Positions 52,240 through 64,000 of a DNA stretch of 64,000 nt are shown here, piece by piece. A program made the translations under genes and the position numbers. Within the stretch, counting starts at the first letter, position 1, and every line of letters starts with the position of its first letter. The stretch comes from Dokdonella sp. (GTDB taxonomy: Bacteria > Pseudomonadota > Gammaproteobacteria > Xanthomonadales > Rhodanobacteraceae), in assembly GCA_019634795.1 (NCBI GenBank), contig JAHCAR010000002.1, positions 1-64,000 of the forward strand, written 5' to 3'. Under the pieces are notes generated by a model. That model had not been told where the DNA came from. It worked only from the letters and a program-made list of their open reading frames with translations, and searched no databases.

Positions 52240-52285
52240 TTCCGCGTCTGGCACAGCCAGGCACCTGATGGCATGAAATGCCGCT

Positions 52286-52313
52286 AAGCCCGCGTAATTG
52301 CGGGCTTTTTTTT
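52286..52313 (+). terminator. Rho-independent terminator of guaBA
   Basis: Stem AAGCCCGC / GCGGGCTT, loop GTAATT, followed by eight T residues, 47 bp after the guaA stop. Confidence 0.93.
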
Positions 52314-52361
52314 GTTTGTGTTTGGCACGATCTGGCAACGGGAGGAAGCGCCAAGCACCGT

Positions 52362-52389
52362 TTGAGCATGGCATTAAAGCTGGTATTAT
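52362..52389 (+). promoter_or_regulatory. candidate integrase promoter
   Basis: TTGAGC, 16 bases, TATTAT, overlapping one TGGTAT arm-like site, so integrase binding could repress its own gene. Confidence 0.45.
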
Positions 52390-52543
52390 GGTTTGGCGAT
52401 GCCATGATTGATGCCGATACCATGCTGCGTTCTTTTGTGTGTTCATGGTATTAATATTCTATAAGTTACTGTTTCGTAAGAAAAAATACGATAAATTCGA
52501 GATTTTTTCAGCATGGTATCGGAGACGAAGAAGGACAAGGTAC

Positions 52544-53746
52544 ATGCTGACCGATACCAAGCTGCGCAATCTCAAGCCCAGGGACAAACTCTACAAAGTG
52601 AATGACCGGGAAGGTCTCTATGTGGCAGTGACTCCAGCCGGCTCCATCTCGTTCCGTTACAACTACTCAATCAACGGTCGGCAGGAGACCATCACCTTTG
52701 GGCGTTATGGTGTCGGTGGCATCACCCTGGCCGAAGCCCGCGAGCTGTTGGGTGACGCCAAGAAGATGGTTGCGGCGGGCAAGTCGCCGGCCAAGGAGAA
52801 AGCCCGAGACAAGGCGCGGGTGAAAGATGCAGAGACGTTCGGTGCCTGGGCGGAGAAGTGGCTGCGTGGCTACCAGATGGCCGACTCCACCCGCGATATG
52901 CGCCGCTCGGTTTATGAGCGTGAGCTGAAGCCGAAATTCAGCAATCAGAAGCTGGTGGAGATCACCCACGAAGACTTGCGGGCGCTGGCTGATGCCATTG
53001 TTGAGCGAGGCGCACCGGCCACCGCCGTTCATGTGCGTGAAATCGTGTTGCAGGTATTTCGCTGGGCCATCGAGCGTGGGCAGAAGGTCGAAAACCCGGC
53101 AGAACTGGTGCGCCCAACAAGCATCGCTCGATTCGAGCCACGTGACCGAGCGTTGACGCCAGAAGAAATTGGGCTGATGTACCAGTACATGGAGCGAGTG
53201 GGCACAAGCCCAACAAACCGTGCGGCGGCCAAGCTGTTATTGCTGACGATGGTGCGCAAGAGCGAGCTGACCAATGCGACCTGGAGCGAGATCAATTTCA
53301 GCGAAGCGTTGTGGACGATTCCAAAGGAGCGGATGAAACGCCGTAACCCGCACCTGGTATTTCTGTCCCAGCAGGCTCTGGATATTTTCATTGCCATGAA
53401 AACCTTTGCCGGTGGTTCCGACTTCGTTTTGCCATCACGGTACGACTCGGATGCGCCGATGAGCGCTGCCACACTTAACCAGGTGCTGACGCTGACTTAC
53501 AAGGCGGCGCAGAAAGATGGGAAGTCACTTACCAAGTTCGGACCGCATGATTTGCGGCGCACAGCCAGCACGCTGTTGCATGAGGCCGGCTACAACACCG
53601 ACTGGATCGAGAAGTGCCTGGCGCACGAGCAGAAGGGCGTGAGGGCTGTCTACAACAAGGCTGAGTACCGCGAGCAGCGGGCGGCGATGTTGCAGGATTG
53701 GGCCGATATGATTGATGAGTGGACTTCGGGAGGCAGTAAGGGTTGA
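52544..53746 (+). CDS. int: P4-type tyrosine integrase
   Basis: Site-specific recombinase of 400 residues from ATG 52544 (AAGGACAAGG precedes it; a frame back to 52439 lacks family sequence). The N-terminal DUF4102 DNA-binding domain (MLTDTKLRNLKPRDKLYKVN) and SAM-like core-binding region precede the catalytic domain with R238 (TMVRKSEL), H335-x-x-R338 (HDLRRT), H361 and nucleophile Y370 (VYNKAEYR). It lies next to guaA and points away from it, so it should insert and excise the element at the guaA 3' end. Complete, no frame break. Confidence 0.95.
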   Translation: MLTDTKLRNLKPRDKLYKVNDREGLYVAVTPAGSISFRYNYSINGRQETITFGRYGVGGITLAEARELLGDAKKMVAAGKSPAKEKARDKARVKDAETFGAWAEKWLRGYQMADSTRDMRRSVYERELKPKFSNQKLVEITHEDLRALADAIVERGAPATAVHVREIVLQVFRWAIERGQKVENPAELVRPTSIARFEPRDRALTPEEIGLMYQYMERVGTSPTNRAAAKLLLLTMVRKSELTNATWSEINFSEALWTIPKERMKRRNPHLVFLSQQALDIFIAMKTFAGGSDFVLPSRYDSDAPMSAATLNQVLTLTYKAAQKDGKSLTKFGPHDLRRTASTLLHEAGYNTDWIEKCLAHEQKGVRAVYNKAEYREQRAAMLQDWADMIDEWTSGGSKG

Positions 53747-53752
53747 TGTTTT

Positions 53753-53769
53753 TGCTATCTTTGATAGCA
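53753..53769. promoter_or_regulatory. palindrome TGCTATC-TTT-GATAGCA
   Basis: A perfect 7-bp dyad just behind int. The block ATCTTTGATAGCAT recurs at 56804-56817 before the ribbon-helix-helix gene, so it may be an operator. Confidence 0.45.
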
Positions 53770-53827
53770 TTGAAGTTGATGCCGTGAATTTATAAATAAG
53801 GCCGCCATTGGCATCGGGCAGGTCAAT

Positions 53828-62109: not shown

Positions 62110-62873
62110 GATGTTTCGCTTTCTGGTAGTGGCTGGGGAGCAATGGCGATGGATGAAAGATCGGTGGCCTCGTCGATGACGTGGCCGGCCGCTTTCCGTT
62201 CGGAATAGCGGTCTGTCAGTGCTTCACGGTGCGGCCGTACCAGCGCCGTGAAGCGCACCAGTTCTTCCATCACATCGGCTATTCGGTCGTAGTACGGCGA
62301 GGGCTTCATGCGGCCCGCCGCGTCGAACTCTTGGAACGCTTTGGCGATACTCGACTGGTTCGGAATGGTGAACATTCGCATCCAGCGGCCGAGCAGACGC
62401 AAGGTGTTCACGGCGTTGAAGCTCTGCGAGCCGCCGGATACCTGCATCACGGCCAGGGTGCGGCCTTGGGTCGGCCGGATGCCGGCCATTTCAAGCGGCA
62501 GATGGTCAATCTGCGCCTTCATGACACTGGTAATCTGACCGTGGCGTTCCGGGCTGCACCAGACTTGTCCCTCTGACCACTCGGACAGGGCGCGCAGCTC
62601 CTTGACGGCCGGGTGATCGTCGCTTTGCACTTGATCGGGCAACGGCAAATCGGACGGGTCGAAGATGCGTGTTTCTGCGCCAAAGAATTGCAGCAGCCGG
62701 GCCGCTTCCTCGACGGCCAGCCGTGAGAACGAGCGGGCGCGCAGCGAGCCATACAGCAGCAGGATACGCACCGGCGGGGCGTCGGGTGCCAGCCCGAGCG
62801 CCGGGCGCTCGATGGCAAAGGATTTGTCCAAAGCGGGCAAAGAATCGGGGTCGGAAAGATGGCGAAGTCTCAT
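62106..62873 (-). CDS. arsH: ArsH organoarsenical oxidase / NADPH:FMN oxidoreductase
   Basis: A 255-residue flavoprotein from ATG 62873, which overlaps the arsR stop (ATGA); a GTG/ATG further up would run into arsR. NADPH-FMN reductase signatures [43 protein letters not shown] and [23 protein letters not shown]. ArsH oxidises trivalent methylated arsenicals and reduces quinones. Confidence 0.94.
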
Positions 62874-63202
62874 GCCAACACCTTCCCGGCTTCCGTGGTG
62901 CAAGACAGGTTGCACACCTGGCCGCCGCAGCAGTTTTCCGTGAGAAAGGCCACCAGGTTAGTGGCCGTCGAAAAGTTCGCCTCGTAGATCACAAATCGGC
63001 CTTCTTGCCGCGACGTGACCATGCCGGCGTGTGCCAGCTCTTTCAGGTGGAAGGATAGCGAAGACGGCGGGATGCCGGCCGCTTCGCTGATTTTTCCGGC
63101 GGCCATGCCGGCGGGGCCGGCCTGGACGAGAAGCCGGAACACCGCGAGGCGCGATTCTTGAGCGATGGCCGCCAGGGCGGCTACAGCATTTATCGTTTCC
63201 AT
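62870..63202 (-). CDS. arsR: arsenite-responsive repressor ArsR
   Basis: A 110-residue winged-helix repressor: [32 protein letters not shown]. The usual ELCVCDL metal site of the N-terminal type is absent; four C-terminal cysteines (C91, C92, C97 and C101, [13 protein letters not shown]) form the As(III) site, as in Acidithiobacillus ArsR. First gene of the minus-strand ars operon, with an operator-like dyad just upstream. Confidence 0.93.
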
Positions 63203-63203
63203 G

Positions 63204-63221
63204 TTTCAATAATAGTCGAAA
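63204..63221 (-). promoter_or_regulatory. candidate ArsR operator
   Basis: TTTCAATAATAGTCGAAA, an imperfect dyad directly before the arsR start; AT-rich dyads in this place are usual for ArsR sites. Confidence 0.45.
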
Positions 63222-63238
63222 TATGGAGTGTGCTCAAT

Positions 63239-63265
63239 AGCTCATTTAAGCTGTAAAAATGAGCT
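63239..63265. promoter_or_regulatory. inverted repeat, possible resolution-site arm
   Basis: AGCTCATTT-AAGCTGTAA-AAATGAGCT, a perfect 9-bp dyad between the divergent arsR and resolvase genes, where a res site would be expected. Confidence 0.5.
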
Positions 63266-63349
63266 AGGCGCATTTAGATCGATATGTGATAAATTGGCCT
63301 GCCAGTTTAAGATGGGTGCATTTGAGTATGCCCAAAGGAGCCCGCAAGT

Positions 63350-64000
63350 ATGCGCAGGACGAAGCCAGTAGCCGCGCCGATGGTGGCGCGGGTCTATCTG
63401 CGCGTCAGCACCGACGCGCAGGACTTGGAACGCCAAGAGGCGATCACTACGGCCGCGAAGGCCGCCGGCTACTACGTCGCCGGCATCTACCGTGAGAAGG
63501 CATCCGGCGCACGCGCCGACCGGCCTGAGCTGCTGCGCATGATCGGCGACCTACAGCCCGGCGAGGTGGTCATTGCCGAGAAGATCGACCGCATCAGCCG
63601 CCTACCTTTGCCCGAGGCCGAGCGCCTGGTGGCCTCGATACAGGCCAAAGGCGCACGCCTGGCCGTCCCTGGCGTGGTCGATCTATCCGACCTGGCGGCC
63701 GAGGCCCAGGGCGTCGCCAAGATCGTGCTGGAAGCCGTGCAGATCATGCTTTTTCGCCTGGCCTTGCAGATGGCCCGCGACGACTACGAGGACAGGCGCG
63801 AACGCCAGCGCCAAGGCATTGAGTTGGCCCGCCAGGCCGGGCGGTACAAGGGCCGCCGTGCTGATCCGAAGCGCCGCGCCCAAGTTGTCGCGCTGCGCAA
63901 GTCCGGCTACAGCATCAACAAGACCGCCGAGCTGGCCGGGTACAGTGCGGCCCAGGTGAAACGGATATGGGCCGAGGTCAGCCAGGCCGAAGCGAAGCAG
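63350..64000 (+). CDS. serine recombinase (resolvase/invertase), 3' end beyond window
   Basis: The frame opens at ATG 63350 with AAAGGAG upstream and stays open for 217 codons to the right edge. N-terminal catalytic domain: VYLRVSTDAQDLERQEA with nucleophile S20 and R18, ekIDRISRL (R pair), then the long E helix; C-terminal Hin-like helix-turn-helix (KRRAQVVALRKSGYSINKTAELAGYSAAQVKRIW). This is the Tn3-family resolvase/ParA-like group. Divergent from the ars operon, it probably belongs to the transposon that carried it. Confidence 0.9.
   Translation, partial: MRRTKPVAAPMVARVYLRVSTDAQDLERQEAITTAAKAAGYYVAGIYREKASGARADRPELLRMIGDLQPGEVVIAEKIDRISRLPLPEAERLVASIQAKGARLAVPGVVDLSDLAAEAQGVAKIVLEAVQIMLFRLALQMARDDYEDRRERQRQGIELARQAGRYKGRRADPKRRAQVVALRKSGYSINKTAELAGYSAAQVKRIWAEVSQAEAKQ

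Follow-up and report, generated by a model that had tools for sequence, protein, structure and literature searches.

The right-hand part of a 64,000-base stretch of a Dokdonella draft genome (hereafter, the window; positions 1-64000 of the 290,627-base contig C12) holds an element integrated behind guaA, and we are nearly certain that this is a complete copy of GIsul2 (Tn6591), an already described integrative and mobilizable element (IME) with arsenic and sulfonamide resistance as its cargo. The assembly is a draft of 3.87 Mb in 51 contigs (85% complete), and contig C12 was followed beyond the window (locus L002) for the right part of the element. Core to core, the element measures 15,460 bp (52236-67695). 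It differs from the annotated chromosomal GIsul2 of Escherichia coli EM03-18-08, our reference copy, by 3 mismatches in 15,468 positions, core to core and with no gap; the genes annotated there correspond one for one to those of the present element, and that copy also lies behind guaA. The GIsul2 of Shigella flexneri 51575 occupies 2108-17567, that is, 15,460 bp, and is described with the same three attachment (att) sites, attL, attLR and attR (PMC9376610), while a second description names the same element IME Tn6591 and lists attL, int, oriT and attR (PMC8239412). The gene order of GIsul2 was found throughout: int-alpA-repA-repC-stbC-trbJKL-TA (toxin–antitoxin)-arsBCHR-resG-rcr2-sul2, over about 15.46 kb. 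Length, att sites, gene order and near-identity together thus identify the element as complete GIsul2, and no finding speaks against this identity. The copies of S. flexneri 2457T, Enterobacter cloacae ATCC 13047, Acinetobacter baumannii and E. coli have the same length, order, att sites, guaA target and cargo; only the host of the present copy differs. The anatomy of the element, its ends, its near-identity to GIsul2 and its origin of transfer (oriT) of incompatibility group P (IncP) type are established here.

An earlier, sequence-only reading of the window had joined a guaA-directed integrase, AlpA, repA-repC of incompatibility group Q (IncQ) with iterons, an IncP-type oriT, trbJKL, an ars operon and a resolvase into a single element, and matches to Pfam, Rfam, the IncP plasmid R751 and the E. 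coli annotation bear out this list of parts. The same reading implied a new type of integrative element, one that, once excised, would act like an IncQ plasmid and rely on IncP systems for its mobilisation. The repA and repC genes, the iterons and the IncP-type oriT are truly present, yet the element is already known, being in print as GIsul2 from several groups, which refutes its novelty, and its IncQ set is incomplete (see below); a new element type is hardly credible. Within public collections, window positions 52240-64000 are covered to at least 80% in 15 of 72,556 plasmid records, one of which (H12) is a 4.1 Mb record, and in 22 of 5,426 complete E. coli genomes.

Attachment sites and host neighbourhood

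The core GAGTGGGA stands at both ends of GIsul2 and once inside it. The left copy, attL (52228..52235, + strand), is an exact match at the 3' end of guaA; attLR (C12 64396) and attR (C12 67688) lie beyond the window. Extension of the contig thus yielded the second att copy that the sequence-only reading had proposed to look for, and placed the right end, as that reading had it, outside the window: the element stops at C12 67,695, with the CR2 gene and sul2 also beyond the window. A 12-base pattern, GAGTGGGARTGA, is confined within the assembly to these three att positions. After the core, the right copy reads GTGA, a guaA end known from relatives. The left copy reads ATGA, supplied by the element, and the terminal residues of guaA are therefore unchanged. 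All nine other genomes of the genus that were compared (G001-G009) have the empty site, a single GAGTGGGA at the end of guaA. Behind guaA, G+C content drops from about 0.66 to 0.50-0.63.

Identical copies of GIsul2 do occur on plasmids, in the 15 records noted above, and the assembly is an incomplete draft, so that a plasmid contig carrying GIsul2 might have been joined to the chromosome by mistake. We found no sign of such a join. Host guaA at the left flank and host tadA at the right flank (starting at about C12 67701, beyond the window) enclose the element inside one large contig, the core is perfectly duplicated, and the right end carries the guaA stop context GAGTGGGAGTGA that site-specific insertion would leave there. 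Moreover, six of the nine congeners (G002, G003, G004, G005, G007 and G008) have tadA on the guaA contig, 1-4 kb downstream of that gene (in G005, the distance is taken from where guaA ends on contig C45), and guaA is present on 27 of 30 GIsul2 loci in a survey that kept 80 loci out of 368 integrase relatives in named genomes. An assembly artefact is therefore vanishingly improbable.

The neighbourhood of the site varies among relatives. The genes guaA and tadA directly adjoin in a member of the same family (L095) and in one of the same order (L097); a gap of 1.0-1.2 kb separates them in a congener (L104) and in another member of the order (L100), and they are far apart in three congeners (G001, G006 and G009). 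Among 14 tadA loci from other genomes, guaA is also on these four L loci, and the other ten have none within their 0.9-1.5 kb upstream. The order guaA-then-tadA is thus common, with variable material between the two genes, and strict adjacency is not a rule of the genus, a point against the account given of the site.

Two further observations concern this region. Gaps of about 7 kb separate tadA from the following gene in G002 (contig C52, tadA 128779-129239, following gene at 136274) and in G007 (contig C21, tadA 17981-18417, following gene at 25452), and a different insertion may lie between the two genes there. Between guaB and guaA, the window has two short repeats (50411-50469 and 50642-50680) with dozens of copies in the host genome; a 281-base stretch there gives 73 host-genome matches, its own included, and each of the two repeats also has numerous matches in both G022 and G023, which are Xanthomonas genomes. 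They are probably host repeats similar to repetitive extragenic palindromes (REP-like).

Genes for transfer, replication and cargo

The oriT (56649..56772, + strand) shares 95% identity (118/124) with the traK-traJ intergenic stretch of the IncP plasmid pHH3408 and 91% identity (114/125) with R751; the alignments to the two plasmids have E-values of 1e-44 and 5e-53. An Rfam match to the traJ-II RNA covers 56654-56756 (E=1.3e-21). The motif GCAGGAT (56656-56662), which we take to be the nic motif by analogy with RP4, is preserved in 25 of 25 aligned oriTs, and the inverted repeat that follows it (56665-56704) would by the same analogy have the TraJ-binding role. When positions 56600-56860 were used as the query, 385 of the 72,556 plasmid records matched, 314 of them typed conjugative. 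The element thus holds an oriT of the type found on conjugative plasmids, as is characteristic of a relaxase-less IME, and IncP helpers are therefore plausible. An IncQ-type nic motif was not found in the element. The presence of an oriT in GIsul2 has been stated earlier (PMC8239412).

In the comparison with R751, TraI, TraJ, TraK and TraG all went unmatched in the element at E<=1e-3 (the cut-off for all R751 Tra and Trb proteins), so that it has neither a relaxase nor a coupling protein. The sequence-only reading had left relaxase and primase either outside the window or absent; TraI and RepB are unmatched in the whole element, and the relaxase family PF03432 is unmatched in the assembly. That reading had also taken the trb genes for remnants. 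Instead, trbJ (57177..57956), trbK (57969..58205) and trbL (58216..59643), all on the + strand, are intact reading frames that encode 259, 78 and 475 amino acids. TrbJ is VirB5-like and 66% identical to its R751 counterpart, with a Pfam PF07996 score (24.0 bits) slightly under the cut-off of 24.7. TrbL is VirB6-like (PF04610, E=1.2e-40) and 51% identical to R751 TrbL over 435 aligned positions. TrbK, which has no Pfam match, is called an entry-exclusion lipoprotein after the E. coli annotation.

Upstream of the oriT lie the genes for recombination and replication, all on the + strand. The tyrosine integrase gene int (52544..53746; PF00589 and PF13356, Phage_integrase E=3.5e-24) is followed by alpA (53894..54115; PF05930, E=1.3e-13), encoding an excision regulator or candidate excisionase, by repA (54135..54947; AAA_25, E=1e-30), encoding an IncQ-type helicase, and by repC (54934..55815; PF06504, E=7.8e-145), encoding an IncQ-type replication protein; the starts of int and repA follow those annotated in E. 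coli EM03-18-08. RepA and RepC are 83% and 58% identical, respectively, to the proteins of the IncQ1 plasmid p30168-2. Three direct repeats (55777..55844, with no strand assigned) overlap the end of repC; they are spaced at 22 bases and 83-88% alike, and we regard them as iterons. RepA, RepC and iterons, as expected of an IncQ replicon, are thus all present. The RepB primase and mob genes of such a replicon are not: IncQ1 RepB, MobB and MobC had no match in the element at E<=1e-2 (MobA was outside the search). The iterons have no significant letter match to p30168-2, and no such repeats occur in two examined stretches of that plasmid. With RepB, MobB and MobC unmatched and the iterons without a letter match, autonomous replication of the circle after excision is a conjecture. 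In a published assay, deleting alpA/repA/C left recombination unaffected (PMC9376610).

The remaining genes fill the space to the right end. On the + strand, stbC (56848..57036; PF22513) encodes a FitA/VapB-like antitoxin and has no adjoining toxin gene. It is 48-51% identical to proteins in two surveyed loci, L040 and L064, where the antitoxin-like genes occupy the same place and are followed by a frame of about 140 amino acids that appears, by eye, to be PIN-domain toxin-like. Beyond trbL, a ptaRNA1-family type I toxin gene (59960..60184, + strand; PF12703, E=3.1e-31) faces the antisense RNA antitoxin PtaRNA1 (59895..59966, - strand; Rfam RF01811, E=1e-16). The ars operon (60539..63202, - strand) comprises open frames named after the E. 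coli copy: arsB/ACR3 (60539-61606), arsC (61603-62109), arsH (62106-62873) and arsR (62870-63202). The same annotation identifies the serine recombinase gene resG (63350..64087, + strand), which runs past the window end at 64000, and, beyond the window, the CR2 (ISCR2) gene rcr2 (C12 64519-66012), a truncated glmM (C12 66188-66490) and sul2 (C12 66577-67392, - strand).

Distribution and origin of the element

The sequence-only reading had suggested a search of genomes for the guaA-linked backbone, and our survey supplies it. GIsul2 occupies 30 of the 80 loci (L005-L034), with aligned backbone pieces at least 99.5% identical, and int is 100% identical in 29 of the 80; guaA is on 76 of the 80 loci overall. 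In 22 of the 30, coverage is complete, at 99.5-100% identity, over the first 11.5 kb, which reaches from the left end up to where resG starts. As for the other eight, the contig ends in L021, L023, L030 and L033, the backbone breaks before resG in L012, L024 and L031, and L027 is without the trbL-to-resG part. By title, the hosts of GIsul2 loci are alpha-, beta- and gammaproteobacteria. Two GIsul2 loci, L011 and L020, start near int and so have no guaA on the locus. In addition, L010 has the backbone of GIsul2, yet guaA goes unmatched over the 10 kb that precede int there, and its GIsul2 is possibly at a secondary site.

The cargo raises the alternative that an IME, an ars island and a CR2-sul2 unit, unrelated to one another, merely stand side by side. 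An att-like site, attLR at 64396, belongs to the CR2-sul2 part itself, whose independent movement is known (PMC9376610), and the ars-resG part alone matches other plasmids (H16-H19). Yet the first 11.5 kb forms one block in the 22 loci, E. coli has all 15.46 kb in common with the present copy, and a GIsul2 circle with an attL-attR junction has been published (PMC9376610). We consider the alternative very unlikely: GIsul2 is modular in origin and occurs as one unit.

The three backbone breaks, all located in the arsR-resG interval, lie close together without coinciding (L012:20679, L024:20738 and L031:20735; window about 63218-63277), and all run into one shared 25-base end. L044 has that end as well, and in R751 it adjoins the tni genes (L108:34085-34109). 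Insertion beside resolvase sites is a habit of the Tn402 family, and these breaks look like such an insertion.

Among the other 50 loci, 22 have an oriT (median identity 86.6%). A traJ match is present in 13 of these 22 and a traI match in six, eight have neither, and trbJ exceeds 50% identity in 18; L036, for instance, has a traJ match and no traI match. Judged by such matches, there is a gradient among guaA loci from relaxosome-bearing islands to GIsul2. Its direction would be one of loss in GIsul2, and several loci end early. GIsul2 could have arisen from a guaA IncP island that lost traJ-traI, kept oriT and trbJKL, and, once excised, replicates for a time as an IncQ-like circle whose primase is borrowed; we offer this history tentatively, as a possible though rather unlikely one. 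If it is true, this would help an island that lacks a relaxase to travel, with hardly any change, among alpha-, beta- and gammaproteobacteria.

Within the genus, the oriT-trbJ stretch occurs in none of the nine other genomes (one of ten with the present one). The host GuaA protein is 89% identical to that of L056, 87-89% to those of the Xanthomonas loci, 86% to that of L021 and 83% to that of the Thermomonas locus L015, which points to Lysobacteraceae as the family closest to the host. In complete genomes, GIsul2 is reported from Acinetobacter, Enterobacterales, Alcaligenaceae and one Sphingopyxis (PMC9376610). The present host, Thermomonas (L015) and a metagenome-assembled genome of Lysobacteraceae (L021) lie outside the groups in the distribution section of that paper, and the present copy thus adds a host to them. 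Carriage of sul2 and arsenic resistance by GIsul2 is documented, and the near-invariance of its sequence in hosts that are only very distantly related suggests recent, efficient spread.

Proposed mechanism and comparison with known systems

In the mechanism that we favour, Int acts on the 3' end of guaA, where it recombines the core GAGTGGGA, restoring the last guaA codons and so leaving the host gene whole, and AlpA promotes excision. The excised circle carries an IncP-type oriT and no relaxase, and would therefore need the nicking functions and pore of a co-resident IncP-like conjugative plasmid. The element's TrbJ, TrbK and TrbL probably replace pore subunits and the exclusion protein of the helper, and RepA/RepC with the iterons may permit temporary copying of the circle. 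Int-dependent excision and integration and the effect of AlpA are experimental (PMC9376610), and circle excision and Int-mediated reintegration have been demonstrated for S. flexneri and E. coli (PMC9376610). The IncP helper, the reshaping of the pore and replication are parts that we infer. An earlier model (PMC5704250) already has GIsul2 borrow both relaxase and coupling protein from IncP plasmids and reshape their pore through TrbJ, TrbK and TrbL; IncP-helper mobilisation is a proposal there, not a demonstration.

Three points weigh against or weaken this mechanism. Neither the relaxase family PF03432 nor VirB4 (PF03135) has a match in the host's own assembly, which is 85% complete, so that no helper is visible in the host genome. 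TrbK has no match to R751 TrbK at the cut-off. Finally, Harmer et al. (2017), as cited in PMC9376610, found no circle in the context of an IncC plasmid. The conserved IncP-type oriT offers a definite segment on which the published helper hypothesis can be tested.

Among the closest known systems is ICERspD18B of Rheinheimera sp. D18 (PMC7775301; L016), which shares the guaA target and whose first 11,508 bp are without mismatch to the present element. It is larger (28.5 kb), carries extra resistance genes and is termed an integrative and conjugative element by its authors (PMC7775301). TraI, TraJ, TraK and TraG have no match in L016, which covers only the first 11.5 kb of ICERspD18B. Transfer of this guaA element to E. 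coli was reported at about 2.76e-7 per donor (PMC7775301).

The 'IncP island' IMEs of Burkholderia glumae and Brucella likewise have IncP-type TrbJ/TrbL, and the Brucella entry lies at the 3' end of guaA (PMC5704250). They keep a MobP relaxase and TraJ/TraK, whereas GIsul2 has oriT and trbJKL only (PMC5704250). Five of the surveyed loci (L040, L044, L065, L072 and L073) look like islands of this kind. Salmonella genomic island 1 (SGI1), like GIsul2, is a relaxase-less island that depends on a helper plasmid and supplies replacement pore subunits; unlike GIsul2, it does so with unrelated genes (TraN/H/G) and with an IncA/C helper (PMC5704250).

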